DNA of 64,000 nt from a virus. Under the pieces are notes generated by a model, which was given only the letters and a program-made list of their open reading frames with translations, was not told the DNA's origin and made no database searches. Location: positions 1-64,000 of IMG/VR virus record IMGVR_UViG_3300032895_000002; one strand, given 5' to 3'. Position 1 is the stretch's first letter, and each line of letters opens with the position of its first letter. This document shows, piece by piece, positions 126-45,942 of this stretch. The translations under genes were made by a program, and so were the position numbers.

Positions 126-1775
126 TCAGCCGATCAAAGCCATGACGTCGATCGCCGGCTTGGCGCGGTCGCGCGCCCGCAGGCCCATCGCCATCGCCAG
201 CGCGACCGCGCCGTCAATGCGGAAGCGCGCCTTGTCCTTATCGAGCTTCCGATTGCCCGCCTTGTCCATGGTCACCACCGCGTTGGCGACGTTCCAGTTC
301 AGGATCGGATGGTTCGGATGCGCGAGCCGGCGCTCGAAGATGGCGAGCTCGAGTGCGTCGACCGCCGGCGCCATGTCCTGATAGCCCTGGCCCCACGGCA
401 TCAGCCGGAGCCCGTCGCCTTTGTCGCCGTCCTTGAACGCGCGCAGGCCGATGCGGTCGAACTCGTTGAGCAAGCTCTGAATCCGCCAGCGATCATACGC
501 GAGGCCACGGACCCTGTAGCGCTGATGCAACTCGGCAATCGCCAGCGCCACCACGCCCGGATCGATCGAGCGGCTGGGCGACAGCCGGAGGAAGCCGGCC
601 TCGGCCCATTCCCGATAACGGCCGCTGCCGGCGCCGAAGTCGCGCGCCGACTGCTCGTTCAACAGGTCCGCCGGCTTCCAGAAGAACGGCGCGACCCGGG
701 CCGGCTCGGCGACCGACACCATAACCAGCGCCGTAAGGTCGATGACGCTCGACAGGTCGAGGGCGAGATAGACGTCCTCGCCGGCGATGAACTCGGCCGG
801 GCCGGCGCAGGCTGTCCACTCGGCGCGAGACAGCAAGGGCGCGATCGGCGACACCCGCTGATTGAGGAACAGGTTCCTGACCTTGGGCTCCTCCGCCGGC
901 AGGCGGATCGCCTTGCGGATCGCCGAGGCCAGATCTTCGCGGTCGCGAAACACGCCCAGCGCCGGATTGGCCTTGCGCCATTGCGCTTCGTCATCGAGCG
1001 CGCAGTCATCGTCGGCCGCGTGCAGATGGCAAACGATCGACGGGTCTTCGCCGCTCAGCCCGTCATCGATCAGCTTCGACAGGATGTGCTCGGGATCGTT
1101 GCTCTGCGTCGAGATGGCGATGAACAGCGGTTCGTCGCGCGCCCCGAACGACGTATCGAACACGTCATAGAGGGTGCGGTTCTTCGCCTGCGCCAGCTCG
1201 TCGTAGATGACCACCGAAGGCAAATACCCGTGCTTGGTTCCGGCCTCGCGCGACACCGCCCGATAGACTGAGCCGGTCGGCCGGCCGATCATGGTCTTGG
1301 TCGAGGGCACGACGTCGACCAGCGCCGCCAGGCCCGGCTCGATGGCGATGATCTGCTGCGCGAACTTGAACACGATCCCCGCCTGGTCGCGATCGTTGGC
1401 GGCGGAATAAATCTCGCCGTTGGGGATCGCCTCGGGGCCGACCAGGTGCGCGAGCGCCAGCGCCGCGATCAACGCCGTCTTGCCGTTCTTCCTGGCGATC
1501 GACAGGATCGCCCGGCGCACCACCCGCTTGCCGTCCCGATGCGGCTCGTAGATGTCGCGGATGAACCGCTTCTCGAACGGCATCAGCTTGAACGGCTTGC
1601 CCTGGCCGACGCCGCTCGGCACCGTCAGGGTCTCGATGAAGCCGATCACCAGCTCGGCGCGGGCCTTGCCCTTCGCGGTGCGCCTAGCGGGCGATGAAGC
1701 GGCTGAACTTCTCGCTCGGGTCGTCCGGCTCCACGCTGATGCGCGACCGGGCGGCTGGAGTAAGTCCAAACTCAC
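126..1775 (-). CDS. terL: Terminase large subunit (HK97-type, Terminase_1)
   Basis: Motor and nuclease that packages phage DNA into the prohead. The N-terminal ATPase has a Walker A-like ARKNGKT near residues 94-100 and a hydrophobic strand ending in YDE (191-193) as Walker B. The C-terminal nuclease half carries acidic clusters (LALDLSS near 337 and RIDGAVALAMA near the end). At 549 aa it is a full-length member. The start overlaps terS by about 90 nt; no better ATG lies closer, and a non-ATG start nearer residue 40 is possible. It is the last late gene visible before the left edge. Confidence 0.93.
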   Translation of the reverse strand: MSLDLLQPPGRASAWSRTTRARSSAASSPARRTAKGKARAELVIGFIETLTVPSGVGQGKPFKLMPFEKRFIRDIYEPHRDGKRVVRRAILSIARKNGKTALIAALALAHLVGPEAIPNGEIYSAANDRDQAGIVFKFAQQIIAIEPGLAALVDVVPSTKTMIGRPTGSVYRAVSREAGTKHGYLPSVVIYDELAQAKNRTLYDVFDTSFGARDEPLFIAISTQSNDPEHILSKLIDDGLSGEDPSIVCHLHAADDDCALDDEAQWRKANPALGVFRDREDLASAIRKAIRLPAEEPKVRNLFLNQRVSPIAPLLSRAEWTACAGPAEFIAGEDVYLALDLSSVIDLTALVMVSVAEPARVAPFFWKPADLLNEQSARDFGAGSGRYREWAEAGFLRLSPSRSIDPGVVALAIAELHQRYRVRGLAYDRWRIQSLLNEFDRIGLRAFKDGDKGDGLRLMPWGQGYQDMAPAVDALELAIFERRLAHPNHPILNWNVANAVVTMDKAGNRKLDKDKARFRIDGAVALAMAMGLRARDRAKPAIDVMALIG

Positions 1776-17199: not shown

Positions 17200-17685
17200 C
17201 TAGAAATCCAATTGAGGCAGGCCAGTTAGATTTTTCTCGACCCAACGCGGCGGGCGCCTTCCGCTCAGGCTCCACAAAAAGCGGACATATTGAATTTCAT
17301 CGAGGCAGGCCCGTTTCACGCGTAATGCGCGCTCCGCCGCCTCGTTCATGGCCGCGACTTTGAACCACGAGAAATCAGCCGCGTAGCGGCACATGAAGAA
17401 CGGCAATTCATCTTGACGCGGTTTGACCAATTCGATCAGAACCGCAGTCGGGCGCAGCAGAGCCCTTCTTTCCGCTTCAAGTGAAAGCGGCTTCCCGTAT
17501 TCGTGCTTGTACTCGATCAGCCCCGTCGGAAGGCCGCCGTTATAGGGGACAAAATCAAGGTCAACGACTGGGCAGTGCTGACCCCATAGCCGATGTCGAT
17601 CCGATAGCAATTGCGCCGCAATCGCCCGTTCCAGCGCTGGTTGCCGCGCCGGCGGAACGCCATGGAGAGGAATGACCTCGCTCAT
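17200..17685 (-). CDS. PD-(D/E)xK-like nuclease candidate
   Basis: 161 aa. VVDLDFVPYNGGLPTGLIEYKHEYG gives D42/D44 followed by E58-Y-K60, the D...ExK arrangement of the PD-(D/E)xK nuclease fold, with hydrophobic strands on both sides. It is encoded between two DNA methyltransferase genes, which would suit a modification-dependent or restriction-like enzyme. The call rests on motif geometry only. Confidence 0.5.
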   Translation of the reverse strand: MSEVIPLHGVPPARQPALERAIAAQLLSDRHRLWGQHCPVVDLDFVPYNGGLPTGLIEYKHEYGKPLSLEAERRALLRPTAVLIELVKPRQDELPFFMCRYAADFSWFKVAAMNEAAERALRVKRACLDEIQYVRFLWSLSGRRPPRWVEKNLTGLPQLDF

Positions 17686-18860
17686 GCGCTCGCCTCCCGC
17701 ATCGCCTCGCCGCGCCGGTGCTCATCGCCATGACCGTCCCAATTCGGCCGGGCGTGACGCGAGAACAGTTCGGCGTAACGCGGCGCCGGGCAGAGGCTTT
17801 CAACGAAGGTGTAAAATTGCTCCGGCTTCTGCGAATTCTCGCGCAGCGGGCCGTGCAGCGCGGTCGTCTGATTGACGAGATGGACGGTCGGCTTGCCGCG
17901 CACCGCGAACAGACAGTGCTCGGTTTGGCCGCGCAGCCAATCCCCGGTGCCCATCTTGTCCTTGATCCAGGTGAGGATCGTCTTGTGTTCGAACCCCCAC
18001 GCGTCGAGCACATCGAAAGCCTGTCGCATGTGGTGGTTGGTGGTCCACAGCCACAGGACGCAATCCTCGTGCGCGATGGCCTGAACCTTCGCGCCTTCGC
18101 CGCAAATCTCGGCGATCGACATTTGCGGATAGGGATGCGTCGCACGATGCGACGGATCCCCTTTATGAATCTCATAGGGCCAGGGCGGATCGGCGACGAT
18201 GACCCGATATGGTCCTCGGCCAGGATAGGGCGGCGGCTCGGCGCGGATCGCTTCCGCCTGTCGCGCGACTTTGAGCCGCTTGAACGGCCCGTCGACGCGC
18301 CCGGTGCGGTCCATGTCGGCGACCAGCTTGCCGAACCGTTCGGGCTCGGCTTCCGCCGCCTCGACGACGGCGGCGATCTTCTCGACCGTGCGGCCCGACA
18401 CGCCGGCGAAGGCGCCGATCTTGTCGCGAGCGTCAAAAGGTCCGGAAACTTTCCGGCCCTTTTTCCCCCGGCCGCCGAGCGTCATGCGCTCCTTCGCCGC
18501 CGCCTTCTCGGCCGGCTCCAGCGCGCGGCGGATGGCGTCAATCTCGCTCGGCAGGAAATCCTTGCGTATGGCGTTCTCAGCCAGCTCGCCGCGGGCGATC
18601 TCCTTGAGATCGACTTCTGTCACGGGAATCTCGGTGCGGCCTAGCAGCCTGAAGGCCTCAAGCCGCCGCTCGCCAGCGATGAGCGTTCCATCGCAGCGGA
18701 TGACGATTGGATGGAGGAGGCCAACCTCGGCGATGCTCGCCGCCAACCCGGCGACGTCGCCCATCGCCTTGCGATGCCGTTCGCCGATGATGATTGAATC
18801 GATGGACCGCCGGCCATCGAGCGCTGCGGAATCGATCGGCGCGAACGGCTGATCGTTCAT
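17682..18860 (-). CDS. ParB-domain / MT-A70 adenine methyltransferase fusion
   Basis: 392 aa. Residues 1-125 are a ParB/Srx-like domain (LIAGERRLEAF at 60-70). The C-terminal half is an MT-A70 adenine methyltransferase with the motif ADPPWPYE (DPPW at 224-227). ParB domains in this family bind DNA, so the fusion could target methylation. It overlaps its neighbours by 4 nt. Confidence 0.85.
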   Translation of the reverse strand: MNDQPFAPIDSAALDGRRSIDSIIIGERHRKAMGDVAGLAASIAEVGLLHPIVIRCDGTLIAGERRLEAFRLLGRTEIPVTEVDLKEIARGELAENAIRKDFLPSEIDAIRRALEPAEKAAAKERMTLGGRGKKGRKVSGPFDARDKIGAFAGVSGRTVEKIAAVVEAAEAEPERFGKLVADMDRTGRVDGPFKRLKVARQAEAIRAEPPPYPGRGPYRVIVADPPWPYEIHKGDPSHRATHPYPQMSIAEICGEGAKVQAIAHEDCVLWLWTTNHHMRQAFDVLDAWGFEHKTILTWIKDKMGTGDWLRGQTEHCLFAVRGKPTVHLVNQTTALHGPLRENSQKPEQFYTFVESLCPAPRYAELFSRHARPNWDGHGDEHRRGEAMREASA

Positions 18861-22211: not shown

Positions 22212-22568
22212 ATGACGTCAATAGATGACGATGGATTCTTCGAAGGCCTGATGAAGGAGAGCCGCGAAAGGCGGATCGCTCATCCCGATTGGCCGTCGCA
22301 TCGGCCGACCATTACTTTCCCACGCGGGCCGACTTTGGTTCTTGAAGAGATGCCCATCGGCCGATTAGCGCGCGGCCGAGGTCACTGCAAATATTGCTAC
22401 CAGACTCATCAAAATTGGTGGCTGATGGACCCGCGCGCCCATGGGCTCGGTGATGAGGAAGTCGCGGCCGGCGAGGATGCGGTCCTGCTATGCGGCGAGT
22501 GCGAATACACGTACCGAGCGAGCTTTGCCGGCATTGATCCGCCGTTCACGCTCGTTGGGGGCGCATAG
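22212..22568 (+). CDS. Zinc-binding hypothetical protein
   Basis: 118 aa. HCKYCYQTHQNWWLMDPRAHGLGDEEV...LLCGECEYTY contains two CxxC pairs about 45 residues apart, suggesting one zinc site. Ends with TAGTG overlapping the exonuclease start. Confidence 0.6.
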   Translation: MTSIDDDGFFEGLMKESRERRIAHPDWPSHRPTITFPRGPTLVLEEMPIGRLARGRGHCKYCYQTHQNWWLMDPRAHGLGDEEVAAGEDAVLLCGECEYTYRASFAGIDPPFTLVGGA

Positions 22569-23512
22569 TGAACGCCCTCGCGGAACCGCCGGCGATCGAA
22601 CGGCGAGCGATCGTCGACCGCGCTCAATGGCTTGCCTGGCGCATGGCCGACGTCACCGCCTCAGACGTGGCGGCGCTGTTCGGCTGTCATCCCTACGGCA
22701 AAACCAGACTGTCAGTGTGGGCCGAAAAGCAGGGCCTCACCGGCGGCCTGATCGACGACGCGGTGCTGCGCCGCGGCCGGTGGGGCGAGGCGGCGGTCCT
22801 CGAGATGCTGGCGGACGAGCGGCCGGCTTGGCAAATCCGGCGGCCGAAAGTGTACTTGCGCGATCCCACGATCCGGCTCGGCGGGACGCCGGACGCCGAA
22901 GCGATCGACCCGGAGCGCGAGGGCGTAGGCGTTATTCAGACTAAGACGCTCGCCGACAGCGTATTCGAGCGCGAATGGACGGACGGGCCGCCGCTCGGCC
23001 ATCAGCTGCAAACGCTGGCCGAGATGATGCTTGAGCGCGCGTCCTGGGGCGCGCTCGCCGCCTTGGTCATGGACCGCTACGCTTGGCGCCCGGTCATCTT
23101 CGACCTTGAGCGCCATGAGGCCGCGGAGGCCAGGATTCGCGCCGCCGTCGCCCGCTTTTGGAGCGACTTCGAGGCCGGCCTGATGCCGGTGCTGGATCCG
23201 GAGCGCGACGCCGAGACGATCAGCGCGATCTATCCGAAAGCCGCGATCAAAGAGCCGCCGCTCGACCTCTCCGGCGACAATGAACTGCGCGGGATGCTGA
23301 CCACCCGGGCGACGCTCAATCGGCTCACCAAGGACGCGGCGAAGCAGATCGAGCGGCTTGAAACTCACGTCAAGGCGAAGCTCGGCCTGCATGAGCGGGC
23401 GATCGCGCCAGGCTGGCGCATCTCTTGGCGGAACGAGCCGCGTAAAGGTTACGTCGTCGAACCGAGCAATCCGCGCGTCCTACGCATTTTAGAGGAACGA
23501 AACCATGCCTGA
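22568..23512 (+). CDS. YqaJ-family recombination exonuclease
   Basis: 314 aa, start GTG. The N-terminus WLAWRMADVTASDVAALFGCHPYGKTRLSVWAEK is typical of YqaJ/lambda-exonuclease-fold proteins. E74 (RRGRWGEAAVLEM), D109 (GGTPDAEA) and Q124-T-K126 (GVIQTK) mark the catalytic positions; the usual ExK glutamate is Gln here. It resects DNA ends for recombination with the annealing protein, here probably the next gene. Confidence 0.82.
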   Translation: MNALAEPPAIERRAIVDRAQWLAWRMADVTASDVAALFGCHPYGKTRLSVWAEKQGLTGGLIDDAVLRRGRWGEAAVLEMLADERPAWQIRRPKVYLRDPTIRLGGTPDAEAIDPEREGVGVIQTKTLADSVFEREWTDGPPLGHQLQTLAEMMLERASWGALAALVMDRYAWRPVIFDLERHEAAEARIRAAVARFWSDFEAGLMPVLDPERDAETISAIYPKAAIKEPPLDLSGDNELRGMLTTRATLNRLTKDAAKQIERLETHVKAKLGLHERAIAPGWRISWRNEPRKGYVVEPSNPRVLRILEERNHA

Positions 23513-26862: not shown

Positions 26863-27291
26863 ATGAAAGCCCAGCCTGTTGATCCTGCCGTTCTGAGGCC
26901 TGACACGCCGTTACGGCTAGAGATCGCCGCGCGGATCGCGTTCCCCGATGGATCGATGAGCGCGGCCGGGCTGAGGAAGGAGATCGGCCGCGGCCGGCTG
27001 ATTCATGAGCGGATTGCTGGAAAGCAATACACCACGCTGGCGAACATCGAGCGCATGAGAGAACTATGTCGCACTCAGCAAAGCCCGCCCGTCTCTGGCT
27101 CCGGTCAATCCGGGGGAAAAGCAAAGTCTGGTGCATCCTTGACAGCGGACGCCAAATCGCAACTGGCTGCGACGCTGGCGACCGCGCGGGCGCTGAGGAA
27201 AAGCTCGCGGAATACCTCGCCACCCGCGTCGTCAAGCCGAACTACGACAGCGGCCGTGACCCGGCTTCCATCACGATCGCCGAGCTCTTAA
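26863..27291 (+). CDS. xis: Excisionase-like directionality factor
   Basis: 142 aa. The first 70 residues (RLEIAARIAFPDGSMSAAGLRKEIGRGRLIHERIAGKQYTTLANIERMRELC) form a MerR/Xis-like winged-helix of the kind found beside integrases in Hyphomicrobiales. The rest is Ser/Thr/Arg-rich and is read in a different frame over the first 226 nt of the integrase gene. It likely controls excision versus integration. Confidence 0.75.
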   Translation: MKAQPVDPAVLRPDTPLRLEIAARIAFPDGSMSAAGLRKEIGRGRLIHERIAGKQYTTLANIERMRELCRTQQSPPVSGSGQSGGKAKSGASLTADAKSQLAATLATARALRKSSRNTSPPASSSRTTTAAVTRLPSRSPSS

Positions 27292-28196
27292 GGCTCTATC
27301 TCACCGACTGCTGCACTAAGCCGCGGGGCCGGCGTAAGCAGGCGGTCGCCCGCATCGATGAAGTCGCCCGCCGCGTCGAGGCGCTGGTCGGATTCTTCGA
27401 TGACAAGCCTGTCACCGCGCTCTCGAAACGACTCTGTCAGGCCTATGTAGAGAACCGCGGCGACGCGCCCTATGCGGCCCGGCGTGAGCTTGAGGACTTA
27501 TCGTCGGCGTTAGGCTATGCCTACGAGCTTGAGGTTCTCGACAAGGATTTCCGGCGCCGGATCGAGCTGCCGCCGAAAGCGCCGGCTCGCCAGCGATGGC
27601 TTACGCCAGAGGAGGCGGCCAAGCTCCTACTCGCCGCTTGGCGGTTTCGCCAGCGCGAGCGGGGGGGCGCGATCGGGCGGCGCGCAAGCCAGCATGTCGC
27701 CCGGTTCATTCTGGTCGGCCTCTACACCGGCACGCGCTCGTCAGCGATCTGCGGCGCCGCGCTCGGCCCCGCGATTGGTCGGGGGCACGTCGATCTCGAC
27801 CAAGGCGTTTTCTATCGACGCGAGCCGGGGACGCACGACACGATGAAGAAACAGCCGCCGGTGCGGTTACCGCCGAAGCTGCTCGGTCATATCCGGCGTT
27901 GGAAGCGGCGAGGGATTTCTCTCCGGGCGGTCGTCGAATACGAGGGCAAGCCGGTTCTGAGCGTCAAGAAAGCGTTCGCCCGCTGCGTTATTAACGCTGG
28001 CCTCAAGGGCGTTACGCCGCATACTCTGCGCCACACCGCGATCACCTGGGCGCTCCAAGGCGGGATGTCGACGTGGGACGCCTCTGACTATTTCGGGGTG
28101 AGCGAGCACATCATCAGGAGCGTCTACGGGCACCATTGCCCCGATCGCCATGTTGGTGTTGGCCAGGCGCTCCAACGCCGCGGTCGGCCGGCCTGA
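27066..28196 (+). CDS. int: Tyrosine-recombinase integrase
   Basis: 376 aa. Catalytic positions: R224 (TGTRSSAI), H319-T-L-R322 (VTPHTLRHTAITW) and H356 (SVYGHH). Residues after H356 contain no tyrosine, so the nucleophile is not at its usual place; Y354 just before it is the only nearby one. The N-terminal domain (residues 10-60) should bind the arm sites. It inserts the phage into a tRNA-Val gene, the attP lying just downstream. Confidence 0.9.
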   Translation: MSHSAKPARLWLRSIRGKSKVWCILDSGRQIATGCDAGDRAGAEEKLAEYLATRVVKPNYDSGRDPASITIAELLRLYLTDCCTKPRGRRKQAVARIDEVARRVEALVGFFDDKPVTALSKRLCQAYVENRGDAPYAARRELEDLSSALGYAYELEVLDKDFRRRIELPPKAPARQRWLTPEEAAKLLLAAWRFRQRERGGAIGRRASQHVARFILVGLYTGTRSSAICGAALGPAIGRGHVDLDQGVFYRREPGTHDTMKKQPPVRLPPKLLGHIRRWKRRGISLRAVVEYEGKPVLSVKKAFARCVINAGLKGVTPHTLRHTAITWALQGGMSTWDASDYFGVSEHIIRSVYGHHCPDRHVGVGQALQRRGRPA

Positions 28197-30995: not shown

Positions 30996-31324
30996 ACGAT
31001 CAACTCCGCCGCGCGATGGCGGCCGTCGATATCGACGCGATCGACATCGAGGCTCAACGCATCGGCCGAGAGGCGGTCTCGGCCGCGCTGGTGGTGACGG
31101 AGAGCGAGGAGGAGACGCGCCGGCGCGAGGACGAGGCCCGCGCCAAGGCGGAGGCGGAGGCGCAGCGCCAGCGCGATCTCGACGCGGCGCTCGCCGACAC
31201 GATCGAGGCGGTCGCCCGCCATCGCGCCCGGCTCGGCCGCAAGACCTGTTCGACGCATGACGGCGCGACCATCCGTAAGATTTTCGAGCTGCTGCGCGGC
31301 CTGACGCCGGGGACGGACGAATGA
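30992..31324 (+). CDS. Coiled-coil hypothetical protein
   Basis: 110 aa. A long charged coiled coil (EETRRREDEARAKAEAEAQRQRDL) flanked by helices. Overlaps the methyltransferase gene by 4 nt. Function unknown. Confidence 0.6.
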   Translation: MNDQLRRAMAAVDIDAIDIEAQRIGREAVSAALVVTESEEETRRREDEARAKAEAEAQRQRDLDAALADTIEAVARHRARLGRKTCSTHDGATIRKIFELLRGLTPGTDE

Positions 31325-31986
31325 CCCGGGCCTGGAAATACGACGGCAGCATTGACCGCTTTCCGCTCAAGCCCGGCGAGCTGTGGGAGTGCGGGCTCGG
31401 CCGGGTCATGGTCGGCGACATCTATGCAGGGTTGCCGGATTTCATGACGGCCGGCGATTGCGTGTTCGTCGATCCGCCCTACAACGCCGCGCTGGAAAAC
31501 GGCTTCCGCACCAAGGCCAAGCTGCCACCGAACCCGGACGGCTTCGGCCGGTTTCTCGACGCGCTGTTCGGCCGCATCGACGCGATCAGGCCTCAGACTT
31601 GCTTCGTGGAGATCGGCAAGCAGCATGTCGAGGATGTCGTCGCCCGGCTTGAGCGTCGTTTCGCCACGGTCGAGAGTTGGACGGCGACGTACTACAAGCG
31701 CAACCCATGTTTCGTCGTGCGCGGCGGGGCCGGGCCCTCCGCGTTCAATTACGCCGGGCTGGACGAGCAGGACATCATCAGCCTGATTTGCGAGCGCGAG
31801 CCGTTCACGAGGATCGCCGACCCGTGCATGGGCCGCGGCGCGGTCGGGCTCGCCGCCTACAAGGCCGGCCGGTCGTTCTGCGGGACGGAGCTGAATCCCG
31901 CCCGGCTGGCGGTGCTGGTCCGCCGCATCCATGATCTTGGCGGCGCCTGGCGGGTCGGCGGCGTCGCCTATGAGCCGCCGGCATGA
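31321..31986 (+). CDS. DNA methyltransferase (DPPY, permuted)
   Basis: 221 aa. FVDPPYNAALENG near residue 57 is motif IV, and IADPCMGRGAVGLAAYKAGRSFCGTELNP near 165 is motif I plus II. Motif order IV then I makes it a beta-type N4/N6 methyltransferase. It is short, with little room for a target-recognition domain. Fourth DNA methyltransferase in the window, next to the IbrA/IbrB-like cassette. Confidence 0.8.
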   Translation: MTRAWKYDGSIDRFPLKPGELWECGLGRVMVGDIYAGLPDFMTAGDCVFVDPPYNAALENGFRTKAKLPPNPDGFGRFLDALFGRIDAIRPQTCFVEIGKQHVEDVVARLERRFATVESWTATYYKRNPCFVVRGGAGPSAFNYAGLDEQDIISLICEREPFTRIADPCMGRGAVGLAAYKAGRSFCGTELNPARLAVLVRRIHDLGGAWRVGGVAYEPPA

Positions 31987-32297
31987 GGCGCGCGGCGTTC
32001 ATGGCGACGCCGCTGGTCGCGACCGCGTTCGCCGCAACCTGGCTCGCCGCGGCCTTCCCGGCGGCGGCGGCGCATTGTCCGCACGGCCAGCTGTACCGCG
32101 TCCATCTGCGCCGGTGCGTCGCCCTGGGCTCGCCCTTGGCTTTGGCTTACGAACGGCCCCCGCGTCCGGTCCTGCTAAGGCTGCTGCCCCCCGCCCCGCC
32201 GGCTCGCCCGGCGCCGGCGGCCGAGCCGGCGCTGATCCTGCCGGCGCTCGACCGTGAATGGCGGGAGGCCTGGCCGCTGGTCGAGTGGCCGAAATGA
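31983..32297 (+). CDS. Small exported protein
   Basis: 104 aa with signal peptide MRRAAFMATPLVATAFAATWLAAAFPAAA, then HCPHGQLYRVHLRRCVALGSPLALAY and a Pro-rich tail. The two cysteines are likely disulfide-linked. Similar exported proteins are common in Hyphomicrobiales phages and prophages. Coupled to the methyltransferase gene by ATGA. Confidence 0.6.
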   Translation: MRRAAFMATPLVATAFAATWLAAAFPAAAAHCPHGQLYRVHLRRCVALGSPLALAYERPPRPVLLRLLPPAPPARPAPAAEPALILPALDREWREAWPLVEWPK

Positions 32298-32477: not shown

Positions 32478-32765
32478 ATGATCGACCTTAGCCGCCTTAC
32501 CTTCAAATTCGCGAAGACGATGCCGGAGATTCCGCATTTCTACGTCGTGCGGACGCCGGAAAACGAGGCCGACTTCGTTGAGCTGTTCCACACCATCAGG
32601 CGCGACGGCGTAGACGAGAAATGGGGCCGGCGGACTTTCCGCTATTGGTACGCCGGCGACAGCTGGAAATACTGGGCCATGCCCGACGATCTGCCGCGCT
32701 GCCAGGTCATCAATCGGGCCAAGGTTGACGATGACCCAAAACTACTTGACGAAATCCGTCTTTGA
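32478..32765 (+). CDS. Cassette gene 1, unknown
   Basis: 95 aa. LSRLTFKFAKTMPEIPHFYVVRTPENEADFVELFHTIRRDGVDEKWGRRTFRYWYAGDSWKYWAMPDDL reads as an alpha/beta domain with an aromatic core. It overlaps the PAPS-reductase-like gene by 35 nt, so it is part of that unit. Similar small proteins precede IbrA-like genes in phages; function unknown. Confidence 0.65.
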   Translation: MIDLSRLTFKFAKTMPEIPHFYVVRTPENEADFVELFHTIRRDGVDEKWGRRTFRYWYAGDSWKYWAMPDDLPRCQVINRAKVDDDPKLLDEIRL

Positions 32766-33870
32766 GGCGGCGCAAGAGCGCATCGGCTTCGTCTACGACC
32801 ATTGCGACGACGTGATCGTGTCGATGAGCGGCGGCAAGGATTCGACCGTCCTCTTCGAGCTGACGCGAGTGATCGCCGCCGAGCGCGGGCGCCTGCCGCT
32901 CAAGGTGTTCTGGCTCGATCAAGAGGCGGAATGGAAGGCGACCGAGCTTTACATGGCCGCGGTCATGCGCGCTCCCGACGTGCGGCCGTTCTGGTTCCAA
33001 ATCCCCTTCCGGCTGTCGAATAGCCTGTCGTTCGCCGACAACTTCCTCAATTGCTGGGCTGAGGCCGATCGGGCGAAGTGGATTCGCGAGCAAGACCCGC
33101 TCTCGATCAAGGTTAACCCGCTCCCGGCCTATGACCGGTTTCATGACCTGGTGGAGCGCCTGCCGTCACAATGCGATTGTGTTGGCAAGCAACACGTCGG
33201 CGTGCTGGTCGGAATGCGAGCGATGGAGAGCTCTAACCGGCGCTTGCAGACCACCGAGCATGCGCCGCATTTCAAGGGGATCACCTGGTGTCGGAAGCCG
33301 ATCGCCAATACGCGGGTGTTCTGGCCGCTCTACGACTGGCTGGATCGCGACGTGTGGACGGCGATCGCCAATCACGACTGGCCCTACAACCGGATTTATG
33401 ACGCCTTCTACAAATACGGCAAGGTTGGCCGAGAGATGCGGGTCTCGGCGCTCATTCATGAAACCGCCTGGCATTCGATCGAGCAGCTGCAGGAGGCGGA
33501 GCCGGAGATGTACAACCGCTATCTGACGCGGGTGGAAGGGGTGAACTGCTTTAACCACTTCGAGCGCCAGATCATGCCGGACAAGCTGCCGGCCCACTTC
33601 GCCGACTGGCGCGAATATCGCGACTATCTGTTGGAGAACCTGACCGAGCCGCAGCACCGCGAGCGCTTCCGCCGGCGATGGGCGAATCAGAACGAGGAGC
33701 GCTGGCATAAGGTCCACGTGCGCGAGATCATGGTCAACGATCTCGACGGCACGCTCAACGGCAACGCCCGGACCCGCTTCAAGATGGAGGAGCGGCGCCG
33801 GCCCGGCGGGCTCTATGAGCAGCGCAAACAGGCGCGCCGGCTCGCCAGGATCGCCGCCGGAGACGAGTAA
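32731..33870 (+). CDS. IbrA-like PAPS reductase-fold protein
   Basis: 379 aa. The N-terminal PP-loop SGGKDS (33-38) follows DDVIVSM, giving the ATP-pyrophosphatase/PAPS-reductase fold. Later VGVLVGMRAMESSNRRL and ITWCRKPIANTRVFWPLYDWLDRDVWTAI match the IbrA (DUF3440) type. PP-loop enzymes adenylate or sulfur-transfer onto a substrate. The adjacent IbrB-like gene reproduces the ibrA-ibrB pair of Escherichia prophages. DNA modification is one inferred role; the IbrAB literature itself concerns gene activation. Confidence 0.85.
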   Translation: MTQNYLTKSVFEAAQERIGFVYDHCDDVIVSMSGGKDSTVLFELTRVIAAERGRLPLKVFWLDQEAEWKATELYMAAVMRAPDVRPFWFQIPFRLSNSLSFADNFLNCWAEADRAKWIREQDPLSIKVNPLPAYDRFHDLVERLPSQCDCVGKQHVGVLVGMRAMESSNRRLQTTEHAPHFKGITWCRKPIANTRVFWPLYDWLDRDVWTAIANHDWPYNRIYDAFYKYGKVGREMRVSALIHETAWHSIEQLQEAEPEMYNRYLTRVEGVNCFNHFERQIMPDKLPAHFADWREYRDYLLENLTEPQHRERFRRRWANQNEERWHKVHVREIMVNDLDGTLNGNARTRFKMEERRRPGGLYEQRKQARRLARIAAGDE

Positions 33871-33878
33871 CGCCCCAA

Positions 33879-34493
33879 ATGACAAGTAATGCGCTGGCTA
33901 AATATCTCGCGCCGCCGCCCCCGGAGGTCGCCGCCATCAATCCGATCGCCCGTGTTCTTTGGGTGCCGATCGAAAAGGTGTTCGCCAACGACTACAATCC
34001 GAACAGCGTCGCGCTGATGGAGATGCGGCTGCTCTACGTCTCGATCAAGCACGACGGCTACACGCAGCCGGCCGTCACCATCTATGACGCCAAGCGCGAC
34101 CGCTTTGTGATCGTCGATGGCTTCCATCGCTACTCGATCATGAAGCGCTATCCGGACATGCTCGCCAGGAACCACGGCTTGTTGCCGATCGTGGTCATCG
34201 ACAAGGGCGTGAATGACCGGATGGCGAGCACGATCCGCCACAACCGGGCGCGCGGCAAACATTCGATCGACGGGATGAGCGCGCTGGTGGTCGAGATGCT
34301 GGCGAACGGGTGGAGCGACCGGCGGGTGTGCGAGGAATTGGGGCTCGAGAAGCAAGAGCTGATCCGCCTCAAGCATATCACCGGCTACGCCAAGTTTTTC
34401 GCCGGCGGCGACTATTCGCCGGCGATGGAGACCAACCGGCAGATCGAGGAACGGCTCAAATACGAGGGAGAGGCGGCGGAGGGCGAGGAGTAG
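33879..34493 (+). CDS. IbrB-like ParB-domain protein
   Basis: 204 aa. IEKVFANDYNPN (31-42), then VDGFHRYSIM (79-88) in the ParB GxRR position, then MASTIRHNRARGKHSIDGMS (115-134) match IbrB. The latter segment is unusually conserved in that family. IbrB acts with IbrA. It starts 9 nt after the IbrA-like gene and ends 6 nt before the next gene. The ParB fold may hydrolyse or bind a nucleotide. Confidence 0.85.
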   Translation: MTSNALAKYLAPPPPEVAAINPIARVLWVPIEKVFANDYNPNSVALMEMRLLYVSIKHDGYTQPAVTIYDAKRDRFVIVDGFHRYSIMKRYPDMLARNHGLLPIVVIDKGVNDRMASTIRHNRARGKHSIDGMSALVVEMLANGWSDRRVCEELGLEKQELIRLKHITGYAKFFAGGDYSPAMETNRQIEERLKYEGEAAEGEE

Positions 34494-34498
34494 CGGCG

Positions 34499-35041
34499 AT
34501 GGATTGGAAGAAGGGCGCCGCGCTCAGCGGCGATCAGACCGGCCATCCGATCTTGTGGCACGCGACGCTCGCCGAGCTTGGCTATGGCGAGGTCGTCGCC
34601 CTGCCGGAACTCGGCCGGCAATGGTTCGTCGATTTTTGGGGTGACGACAAGGCGTCGATCCGCCTGAAAACCTTCGGCCACAAGGCGGGCAAGGAAGGCA
34701 CCAGCCCGCATTTCCTGTGTACGCGCGGCGGCTATCCTATGCACACTGATCCCGGCGCCACCCGCTACGCGCTGCAAATCCAGCTTCACAATGACGGCTT
34801 CATCGTCCACGGCCTTGAGGACGACCTGGCGGCGATGCCGCTGTTCTCGCCCGGCTTGGTGATCGTCCTCGACACCTGGTCGCCGCACCAGGTCGCGCGC
34901 GATCTCCGCCTTCCTCAGACCGGCCCCAACAAGCTCTTGGTCGGCTTCGACCGCGCCGAGTATCCGAACGTCGAGGCCGAGCTGCCGAAGCTCATCGAGC
35001 ATATTCCGATGCTCGCCTATCAGATCGGGCGGGCCGCGTGA
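34499..35041 (+). CDS. Putative 2-oxoglutarate/Fe(II)-like oxygenase
   Basis: 180 aa. H82-T-D84 in GYPMHTDPGATRYALQIQLHNDGF and H130 in PLFSPGLVIVLDTWSPHQV reproduce the HxD...H iron triad, with R134, R137 or K145 available for 2-oxoglutarate. The strand LFSPGLVIVLD before the distal His is typical of the double-stranded beta helix. If correct it hydroxylates a base, amino acid or small molecule. Not a recognised family, and motif-based only. Coupled to the ParB gene downstream. Confidence 0.5.
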   Translation: MDWKKGAALSGDQTGHPILWHATLAELGYGEVVALPELGRQWFVDFWGDDKASIRLKTFGHKAGKEGTSPHFLCTRGGYPMHTDPGATRYALQIQLHNDGFIVHGLEDDLAAMPLFSPGLVIVLDTWSPHQVARDLRLPQTGPNKLLVGFDRAEYPNVEAELPKLIEHIPMLAYQIGRAA

Positions 35042-35652
35042 TGGTTGAGATCATCAACGAGCTGGTGCTGGTCGAGACGCGGCGGATCAAGCCCTACCAC
35101 CGCAACCCGCGCAAGAATGACGCGACGGTCGAGAAGCTGGTCGAGCTGATCCCCAAAGTCGGCTTCAACGTGCCGCTGGTGCTCGACCGCAACAACGTCA
35201 TCGTCAAAGGCCACACCCGCTGGAAAGCGGCGGTGCGGCTCAAGATGGCGCAGATTCCATGCGTCTACACCGACGCCGACGAGGAGACGATCAAGCTCGA
35301 TCGCCTCGCCGACAACAGGGTGCAGGAGTTCTCGACCTGGGATCAGGAATTGCTTGGGGGCGAACTGGCGTCGCTCAATCTCGACTACGCCTTCGATCTC
35401 GGCACGCTCGATTTCGTGCTGGCGGACAATCGCCGCAGGCCGCCGGGCGTGACGGGCGAGCCGGCCGCGCCGGGCGCCGAGGCGCCGGGCGAAAGCGGAT
35501 TGGCGGCGGGCGAGCGCGAGGACGACAGGCCGTTCATCAGCGAGGATGACGTGCGGGCTACCGCCTCGTTGCCGATCAACGAATATACCGAGGTCACGTG
35601 CAATAAATGCGGTAATCGCATGTACGTCCGCAAGGGTAGCCAAGCCGCATAA
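35041..35652 (+). CDS. ParB-domain protein with C-terminal zinc ribbon
   Basis: 203 aa. A ParB-N domain (RIKPYHRNPRKNDATVEKLVELIPKVGFNVPLVL; VKGHTRWKAA at 55-64) is followed by a disordered linker and a CNKCGNRMYV knuckle near the C-terminus. Phage ParB-like proteins of this size are often found beside methyltransferase or terminase genes. Last gene before the terminator. Confidence 0.78.
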   Translation: MVEIINELVLVETRRIKPYHRNPRKNDATVEKLVELIPKVGFNVPLVLDRNNVIVKGHTRWKAAVRLKMAQIPCVYTDADEETIKLDRLADNRVQEFSTWDQELLGGELASLNLDYAFDLGTLDFVLADNRRRPPGVTGEPAAPGAEAPGESGLAAGEREDDRPFISEDDVRATASLPINEYTEVTCNKCGNRMYVRKGSQAA

Positions 35653-35688
35653 AAAAATCGCCGCCGGCGAGCGAAGCCAGCGGCGATT
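35651..35688. terminator. Bidirectional intrinsic terminator
   Basis: AATCGCCGC (35656-35664) and GCGGCGATT (35680-35688) form a 9-bp stem. Seven A's precede it (35651-35657), which read as a T tract on the minus strand, making a strong terminator for the leftward structural operon. It separates that operon from the rightward modification cassette. A second imperfect dyad (GCCCGC...GCGGGC) lies at about 35710-35747. Confidence 0.75.
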
Positions 35689-35756
35689 CCGATCCTTCAG
35701 AGAACCAATGCCCGCTCGGTTTCTATCCGAACCCCTTCACGCGGGCAAGGCGAGCA

Positions 35757-44763: not shown

Positions 44764-45942
44764 CTAATTCGGCAGGTAGAGCGGCGGCGGATCGGGGACG
44801 CTGGTCATCGGCGCCGCCGGCCGCGCGCTCGTTTCATAGCTGGCCGGGTCTTGTAGAACGCCGGCCCGCCCGATGTTGAAATCGGTGCTGCCGCGCAACA
44901 GGAACGGCGGCACGCACTCGAGGTTCGTGAGGGTGCCGGCGCCGCTGTCCTGGGTGAAGGTCGCCGACTGGATCGTCATTGCTTCGTCAAGCATCGCCAT
45001 CGGCGACTGGATGTGAACGTTGCGGCCGACCCGCCAGAGGTCGCCGGCGCCGCGGAACCACCCTTGCACCGTTATGACCGCCTGCGCCGCCGCGCCCTCG
45101 TGCCAGATCGATTCGTTGCGGGCGCGGTCCCTGATTTCGGCCTCGCTCCACACCGGCTGCTCGGCGGTGGTCAGCAGCGGCGAATAGCGCTTCGCCGTGC
45201 CGGGGACGCTCGCCCGCTGTTGGCTCGCCTCCGCCCCGTGGTGGTCATCGCTGGCCGCGCTCTGGCCGGCCACGAGATATTCCGAATGGATGCCGTCGGT
45301 TGAAACGACGCACTGGCATTTCTCGATGTTCACGCCCTCGATCAGCCGATCCTCGACCGGGTTGCTGTGCTCGCCGATCAACAGGAAATTCCCGAGATGG
45401 TCGCTGCCGATGATGACGCCGCGCGGCCGGGCCAGGCGCTCAAGGCAATCCCACAGCTTTTCGCCAGGCTCGATTTGCAGCCGCGCGAACGGCGTGTCGT
45501 TGAGCTTGCCGATCGTTTTCACTCCGATGCCGAACGGGGCGATGATCTTGCGCGCGACCTGCTCGAAGGTCTGATCGTCATAATTGCCGGTCTCGTCGAT
45601 GATCGACGATTCGGAGGCGTAGGAAGTGATTCCCTTCCCTTGGATTTGGATGGCGTGGTTGCCCGCGTCGTAGGCGACCTGGCGCACCGTCACCACGCCG
45701 ACCACCGCCAAGACGCCGCCGAGATAGATCGCGCATTCGTCGCCCGGCCGGATTTGATAGGCTTGGCTGCGCTCGACCGCGGAAAAGTTGAATAGCGGCC
45801 AGGCCTCGGCGTAGCGGTGCTGGACCATGACGCTGGTCCAGTCCTCCCATTTCCGGCCGCCGATCATGATGGTGGCGACCTCGGCGGGATTGGGGACCGG
45901 CGCGAAGGGAACGCGACCGCGAGGAAAGGGCGAGTCGTTCAT
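44764..45942 (-). CDS. Mu gp44-like baseplate hub protein
   Basis: 392 aa. VATIMIGGRKWEDWTSVMVQHRYAEAWPLFNFSAVE and LNDTPFARLQIEPGEKLWDCLERLARPRGVIIGSDHLGNFLLIG are hub-type segments, and WHEGAAAQAVITVQGWFRGAGDLWRVGRNVHIQSPMA continues the gp27/gp44-like fold. Central hub connecting tail tube and spike. Confidence 0.85.
   Translation of the reverse strand: MNDSPFPRGRVPFAPVPNPAEVATIMIGGRKWEDWTSVMVQHRYAEAWPLFNFSAVERSQAYQIRPGDECAIYLGGVLAVVGVVTVRQVAYDAGNHAIQIQGKGITSYASESSIIDETGNYDDQTFEQVARKIIAPFGIGVKTIGKLNDTPFARLQIEPGEKLWDCLERLARPRGVIIGSDHLGNFLLIGEHSNPVEDRLIEGVNIEKCQCVVSTDGIHSEYLVAGQSAASDDHHGAEASQQRASVPGTAKRYSPLLTTAEQPVWSEAEIRDRARNESIWHEGAAAQAVITVQGWFRGAGDLWRVGRNVHIQSPMAMLDEAMTIQSATFTQDSGAGTLTNLECVPPFLLRGSTDFNIGRAGVLQDPASYETSARPAAPMTSVPDPPPLYLPN

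Follow-up and report, generated by a model that had tools for sequence, protein, structure and literature searches.

Five tightly packed plus-strand genes (g1 to g5, positions 32478-35652) and a neighboring DNA methyltransferase gene in the virus record IMGVR_UViG_3300032895_000002 probably constitute one variant of a modular phage island that hypermodifies the bases of the phage's own DNA. We place the probability of this reading, which we infer from gene context, at about 60%. The DNA analyzed here (the window) covers positions 1 to 64,000 of this IMG/VR record, which has a total length of 67,749 bp. In addition to a small accessory protein (g1), the five genes encode an IbrA-like PP-loop protein (g2), an IbrB-like ParB-fold protein (g3), a protein with a possible iron-binding triad (g4), and a second ParB-fold protein (g5, hereafter ParB2). 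The conserved core of the island consists of IbrA, IbrB (characterized by a DGFHR motif), and ParB2 (GHxR plus CxxC), and is flanked by enzymes which are swapped from phage to phage, g4 being one of them.

Composition and recurrence of the island

An IbrA profile search identified 55 viral loci, and 38 dereplicated loci with enough downstream sequence were tabulated. IbrB was present in 35 of these 38 loci (immediately downstream of IbrA in 29) and ParB2 in 37. The terminase small subunit was found in 28 loci, and the core is usually located just upstream of the terminase genes. Tailoring-type genes were observed beside the core in 26 loci, including those for glycosyltransferase (15 loci), methyltransferase (13), pyruvoyl-dependent arginine decarboxylase (7) and, more rarely, radical SAM (5), GNAT (2), and UDP-glucose dehydrogenase (2) proteins; all locus counts are slightly low, as the automatic gene caller missed g4 in L031/L006. 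One representative of each main tailoring type was confirmed by Pfam/PHROGs (PvlArgDC, 6e-36; radical SAM, 2e-13; UDP-glucose dehydrogenase, 3.5e-12; GNAT, 1.7e-7; glucosyltransferases, phrog_854 at 3e-8 to 3e-7), and the labels of the glycosyltransferase cluster c28 and of the terminases are a reading of the sequences together with annotated cultured phages. Co-inheritance of activating and tailoring enzymes with DNA-directed partners was observed across the island loci.

The flanking enzymes form several combinations. Two loci (L056, 6995-12907; L061, 6995-12548) contain IbrA, IbrB, and ParB2 together with glycosyltransferase-like genes, a UDP-glucose dehydrogenase-like protein, and a pyruvoyl-dependent arginine decarboxylase, and in L056 a radical-SAM gene lies between IbrA and IbrB. 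Such islands could possibly carry out decoration with a sugar acid and agmatine. Another pair (L010/L011, from IMGVR_UViG_3300048889_000064 and 3300013297_000087) has two tandem glycosyltransferase-like genes between IbrA and IbrB as well as two tandem copies of ParB2, and lacks g4. The first of these glycosyltransferases is 57% identical to the one that precedes g4 in a further locus, L007.

A search of IMG/VR with g4 alone yielded six contigs. Four of them, representing three lineages, contain g1, IbrA, IbrB, g4, and ParB2 in the same order as the window, so that the full set is found in three further phage lineages (49-91% identity). Outside the cassette, L002 and L003 still have neighboring genes in common with the window; for L004 and L006 there are none within the compared stretch. 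The remaining two contigs carry g4 apart from the core. In L007, g4 directly follows a glucosyltransferase-like gene (phrog_854, 3e-8), and a complete g1-IbrA-methyltransferase-IbrB-ParB2 cassette is present about 14 kb away in the same phage (G006). In L005, the g4 relative is located near a GT9-like gene and an integrase.

More distant g4 relatives, at just 34-39% identity, were detected in two lineages from the IbrA search. One has the order of two glucosyltransferase-like genes, ParB2, g4, IbrA, IbrB, and terminase (L079), and the other ParB2, g1, g4, IbrA, IbrB, and terminase (L081/L082). In L086, the order is ParB2-g1-g4-IbrB; a glycosyltransferase-like gene is located nearby, and IbrA lies in another part of the contig. 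Overall, IbrA is present on 10 of 11 g4-bearing contigs (window included; the exception is the 15-kb fragment that carries L005), a count that includes two near-identical pairs (L002/L003 and L081/L082) and is biased towards IbrA by L079 and L081/L082, which entered through the IbrA search, the other contigs having been found from g4. Several gene orders occur, and in two phages g4 and IbrA are at unlinked positions. Because membership is conserved with gene order lost, this pattern speaks for a functional relationship rather than passive inheritance. The initial annotation of the region had expected the five genes to co-occur in related phages, and this expectation is strongly borne out. It had noticed neither the methyltransferase nor that g4 is one of several interchangeable tailoring genes beside the core.

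Protein families and gene layout in the window

The g2 protein matches PF01507 (6.5e-13, 49.5 bits, cut-off 22.5), DUF3440 (PF11922; 5e-6, 26.9 bits, cut-off 25), and phrog_2302 (5e-78). Multiple alignment of 48 IbrA homologs revealed that the PP-loop SGGKDS is kept in 47-48 sequences and that WLDQE and RxSxxxHET, like SGGKDST, are invariant or nearly so. None of the columns of this alignment contains an invariant cysteine (Cys); the best one has Cys in 30 of 48 sequences and glycine or serine elsewhere. Phosphoadenosine phosphosulfate (PAPS) reductases require a catalytic Cys, and thiolating PP-loop enzymes use conserved Cys residues. Since the 48 homologs lack an invariant Cys, both sulfate reduction and phosphorothioation are unlikely activities of IbrA, and the absence of a conserved Cys favors a ligation that forms adenosine monophosphate (AMP). 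TilS, GMP synthetase, and asparagine synthetase follow this logic: an oxo or carboxyl group is adenylated and then attacked by another nucleophile. IbrA was detectable in 215 of 50,697 phage genomes. Two loci (L068, 361-2931; L069, 7001-9571) have a split IbrA gene, in which about 1.4 kb of inserted sequence separates codons near residue 299, and no Rfam match that would explain the L069 split by an intron was found.

The g3 protein matches phrog_2159 (1.4e-67) and shows weak matches to Noc/ParB and SerK among PDB profiles. DGFHR is invariant in 50 of 50 IbrB homologs, and HNRARGKH is also kept. By sequence and pairing, g2 and g3 are classed as members of the IbrA and IbrB families, and g2 is classed neither as a PAPS reductase nor as DndC. 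The IbrA/IbrB assignment of the initial annotation is therefore upheld by the profile matches and by the adjacency of the pair in other genomes. The g5 protein matches phrog_620 (9e-36), phrog_498 (ParB-DNA methyltransferase fusions, 5e-29), Spo0J (1vz0, 1.5e-6), and Noc. GHxR was found in 60 of 60 ParB2 relatives and CxxC (C187/C190 in g5) in 56 of 60. The earlier description of g5 as a ParB protein with a zinc ribbon holds for the ParB domain but not for the ribbon, as a single CxxC amounts to half of one.

Both the g3 and g5 families contain the P-motif with its conserved arginine (GxxR). This arginine is needed for nucleoside triphosphate (NTP) binding in ParB folds, which in phages frequently occur as fusions with N6_N4 methyltransferases (PMC12704722). 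In addition, DpdB, a ParB-like ATPase, takes part with DpdA in inserting preQ0 into DNA (PMC12839542). The window phage also has a third ParB-domain protein (17682-18860, minus strand), which is fused to a DNA methyltransferase domain; it matches phrog_359 (2e-52) at its C-terminus and ParB families at its N-terminus.

No profile match for g4 was found in Pfam, PHROGs, NCBIfam, or PADLOC, and none of nine family members matched Pfam; there was also no credible PDB profile match. Matches of g4 to alpha-amylase and beta-lactamase profiles were rejected as chance. Tblastn searches with g4 and its L081 version yielded no hit in the 50,697 phage genomes, cultured phages included, and g4 patterns, run twice against 84,980 genomes of bacteria and archaea, found none at pattern sensitivity. 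Thus, g4 appears to be a rare, previously uncatalogued family.

Comparison of nine g4 relatives (32-88% identity) revealed seven invariant residues of interest: H61, H71, H82, D84, H130, R137, and K145. Among these, H82-x-D84...H130 with the downstream R137/K145 fits the residue order of the triad in Fe(II)/2-oxoglutarate (2OG) enzymes. However, when the 33 invariant positions of g4 were shuffled, HxD...H arose in 5% of trials, and in 2% with a following R/K, so that the motif alone is weak evidence for an oxygenase. Hhalign comparison of g4 with eight PiuC-type 2OG proteins gave a probability of 0.3%, no better than for unrelated families, with a yardstick of seven phage proteins and one from E. 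coli and, beyond PiuC, a single AlkB sequence. We do not class g4 as a 2OG oxygenase; that it is one is a tentative idea, for which we see somewhat less than an even chance. The view that g4 is another metal-binding or structural protein serving the island, with HxD...H a coincidence, stands at about even odds. It agrees with the missing profile, PDB, and hhalign matches, the shuffling result, and the two further invariant histidines (H61 and H71), but the invariance of the full H-x-D...H...R/K order among relatives at 32-88% identity speaks against it.

The g1 protein has no profile match in the four collections searched with g4, and tblastn with g1 and one relative detected none in phage genomes. 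Its family comprises 19 members in IbrA loci, mostly directly upstream of IbrA, with H20, Y22, Y65, W66, N79, and R80 invariant. The methyltransferase upstream of g1 matches phrog_67 (7.6e-9), CcrM (1e-4) and, below the cut-off, PF01555 (1e-3), and contains DPPY near its N-terminus and DPCMGRG near its C-terminus. A methyltransferase gene is located inside the cassette in G006/L108 and in L004; because the latter carries it between IbrB and g4, we regard the window gene as the sixth member of the set.

The coordinates of the cassette and of other features of the window are listed in Table 1. All five open reading frames (ORFs) reported in the initial annotation were found in place, either overlapping (g1/g2 by 35 bp, g4/g5 by one base) or separated by at most 8 bp (g2/g3, 8 bp; g3/g4, 5 bp), and the motifs it named (SGGKDS, DYNPN, STIRHNRARGKHSI, and HTD...H) are all present. 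An alternative TTG start of g2 at 32725 was judged less likely than 32731. A codon model trained on neighboring genes, with g2-g5 themselves in the training set, picked exactly g1-g5 as genes. Ratios of nonsynonymous to synonymous substitution rates (dN/dS) of 0.14-0.32 against the L002 orthologs indicated purifying selection. Considering these two results and the recurrence in three further lineages, g1-g5 are real genes under selection and not chance ORFs. One small ORF (31983-32297) lies between the methyltransferase and g1, a terminator-like hairpin marks the junction between the end of the plus-strand cassette and convergent minus-strand late genes, and repeats around the cassette are GC-rich matches at chance level only. 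The integrase, RecE-like exonuclease, baseplate hub, and terminase large subunit identify the window virus as a temperate tailed phage.

Table 1. Features of the window, with position, strand, and basis of assignment.
Feature	Position	Strand	Basis
DPPY-type amino (N6-A/N4-C class) DNA methyltransferase, 221 aa, sixth set member	31321-31986	+	phrog_67, DPPY motif
g1, accessory protein, 95 aa	32478-32765	+	ORF; family with invariant PHxY...YW...NR, no profile match
g2, IbrA-like PP-loop (SGGKDS) ATP pyrophosphatase/"PAPS reductase" family, 379 aa	32731-33870	+	PF01507, DUF3440, phrog_2302
g3, IbrB-like ParB/Srx-fold protein, 204 aa	33879-34493	+	phrog_2159; invariant DGFHR, HNRARGKH
g4, candidate Fe(II)/2OG-type oxygenase, 180 aa	34499-35041	+	invariant H82-x-D84...H130, R137/K145
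g5 (ParB2), ParB/Srx-fold domain (GHxR) with C-terminal CxxC knuckle, 203 aa	35041-35652	+	phrog_620, phrog_498
Terminator-like hairpin and T-run	35653-35690	-	pattern scan only
Terminase large subunit	126-1649	-	
RecE-like exonuclease	22568-23512	+	
Integrase	27066-28196	+	
Baseplate hub	44764-45942	-	

Proposed chemistry and competing explanations

The following scheme would be consistent with a DNA-modifying island. IbrA would consume ATP in adenylating an oxo or carboxyl group of the base itself or of a handle that the methyltransferase has installed, and a nitrogen nucleophile would then replace AMP, as in TilS or CmoY. IbrB and ParB2 would engage DNA through NTP binding and license the reaction, comparable to DpdB with DpdA. 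If its HxD...H triad binds iron, g4 might oxidize the base or the group attached to it. Other phages would combine this step with tailoring of a glycosyl-, acetyl-, or agmatine-related kind, or use such tailoring instead. Agmatine is suggested as the amine in some phages because an arginine decarboxylase lies beside the core. The modified product may hide the phage DNA from host nucleases. The initial annotation had proposed that the cassette makes or installs a modified base, with an oxygenase-like step; the swappable enzymes, the lack of a conserved Cys, and the CmoX/CmoY precedent lend support from context to base modification as a probable role, and the oxygenase step is a candidate one.

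If true, this would provide a chemical function for IbrA/IbrB, known just by an old regulatory phenotype, and g4 would represent a new enzyme family. The pattern also suggests that cultured phages harbor a large number of unmeasured DNA modifications, which could be tested by mass spectrometry. A broader proposal, which we consider rather unlikely, is a widespread, unrecognized class of hypermodification in which a Cys-free PP-loop enzyme adenylates the base and couples an amine (agmatine in variants with arginine decarboxylase), plug-in enzymes complete the product, among them g4 as a new family of metal-dependent DNA-base oxygenases. Iyer et al. (2013) reportedly predicted PP-loop/ParB systems in phages.

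Several observations weigh against a DNA-modifying island. The choice of DNA as the target is itself drawn from the ParB partners, the methyltransferase partners, and terminase adjacency, and the window terminase is about 31 kb from the cassette, unlike in most relatives. About one-third of the cores have no recognized tailoring gene alongside. No match to glycosyltransferase, radical-SAM, or arginine-decarboxylase profiles was found in the whole 67.7-kb record; as neither a glycosyltransferase nor an arginine decarboxylase is seen by profile, the window phage's own product is undefined. AlphaFold gave no usable model of g4 (predicted local distance difference test score, pLDDT, of 34 with 6 sequences and 38 with 9). 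Finally, the earliest description of IbrA and IbrB is as activators of prophage genes, the eib genes in E. coli, which earned the pair its name (Sandt 2002, as cited in PMC10434257).

This history is a ground for regarding IbrA and IbrB as regulators that directly activate phage or prophage genes, the neighboring enzymes being unrelated morons. ParB-fold proteins do bind DNA, but a regulator has no need for an invariant ATP-pyrophosphatase loop, distant phages have the same classes of modifying enzymes next to the core, and g4 accompanies the core also where the two are not adjacent; we consider a purely regulatory role quite unlikely. A comparably small chance is given to a set which modifies something other than DNA, such as transfer RNA (tRNA), protein, the nucleotide pool, or the cell surface. 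Many PP-loop enzymes have tRNA or small molecules as substrates, genes for GT25-like proteins and UDP-glucose dehydrogenase are characteristic of envelope glycans as well, and the surroundings of g4 in L005 fit such a role too. That the units combine two ParB proteins with a methyltransferase of the DNA type argues for DNA instead, as does the grouping of ParB2 with ParB-DNA methyltransferase fusions (phrog_498).

Two sulfur-based explanations appear less probable still. DndC-like DNA phosphorothioation would agree with a weak match of IbrA to DndC (TIGR03183, 4e-4; PADLOC DndC, 1e-6) and with DndB being a ParB-fold protein. It is nevertheless improbable: the TIGR03183 score of 19.5 bits is far under the cut-off of 290, a Cys dyad has been described for DndC (PMC10853773) and the IbrA homologs have no invariant Cys, and no DndA, DndD, DndE, or Ssp match was found among the proteins scanned. 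"PAPS reductases" of phages are common and usually presented as sulfur-metabolism genes, and "phosphoadenosine phosphosulfate reductase" genes of phages have been reported as auxiliary sulfur or host-metabolism genes (PMC10434257, PMC11318856). The PF01507 match of g2 would fit this view, yet CysH models reach at most 20 bits against cut-offs of 154-165, and the catalytic Cys has no conserved counterpart in IbrA, which makes an auxiliary PAPS reductase very improbable here. Considering that the IbrA family is Cys-free, linked to ParB proteins, and accompanied by swappable tailoring enzymes, the sulfur-metabolism reading is probably wrong for the family as a whole.

Cultured phages and related systems

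The core of the proposed DNA-hypermodification island is also found in cultured phages. Like the window, Rogerhendrixvirus phages (Hendrix and Rasputia) and Mycobacterium Pipefishvirus phages have a PAPS reductase and ParB core; unlike in the window, a g4 relative was not found in any cultured phage. The Microbacterium phages Hendrix and Rasputia contain glycosyltransferases, a methyltransferase, an acyltransferase, and a PAPS reductase, and Hendrix has three ParB genes at the other end of its genome. Rhizobium phage RHph_I4 and Arthrobacter phage Shrooms contain ParB, PAPS reductase, ParB, and methyltransferase genes, and FP_Taranis and the Mycobacterium phage LestyG, the latter with the core alone, are further cultured phages which agree with the core pattern. 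In Hendrix and LestyG, the core lies beside the terminase.

Escherichia IbrA and IbrB belong to the same two families as g2 and g3 and are adjacent in the same order, including on the E. coli plasmid CP057965; indeed, the two genes are neighbors in sources ranging from Escherichia plasmids to Flavobacterium phages. The g3 protein is 48-52% identical to IbrB-like proteins from phages of Flavobacterium, Streptococcus, and Microbacterium. On the other hand, g2 shares just 27-29% identity with the enterobacterial proteins, and the pair in the window is accompanied by g1, ParB2, the methyltransferase, and g4.

Similarities to characterized DNA modification systems were also observed. In the Dnd/Ssp/BREX-4 phosphorothioation systems, a PAPS-reductase-family protein likewise occurs with the ParB-family DndB, whereas the window set lacks conserved Cys residues and no DndA/D/E or Ssp partners were seen. 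The Dpd 7-deazaguanine system resembles the window set in that a base-altering enzyme acts on DNA together with a ParB-fold NTPase, but its enzyme is a transglycosylase and that of the window a PP-loop ATPase. By analogy, CmoY may be the closest experimental precedent for the chemistry of IbrA. This asparagine-synthetase homolog ligates glycine to carboxymethylcytosine in phage DNA, CmoX is a methyltransferase-type enzyme, and ParBc proteins are frequent in CmoY neighborhoods (PMC12783734). The CmoA/CmoX/CmoY system differs in that its ligase comes from another PP-loop family, the window methyltransferase is of the amino rather than the C5 type, no CmoA was recognized in the scanned window proteins, and it has no counterpart of g4. 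What the two have in common is an AMP-forming ligase (predicted in the case of IbrA), a DNA methyltransferase-type enzyme, and ParBc proteins within one phage neighborhood.

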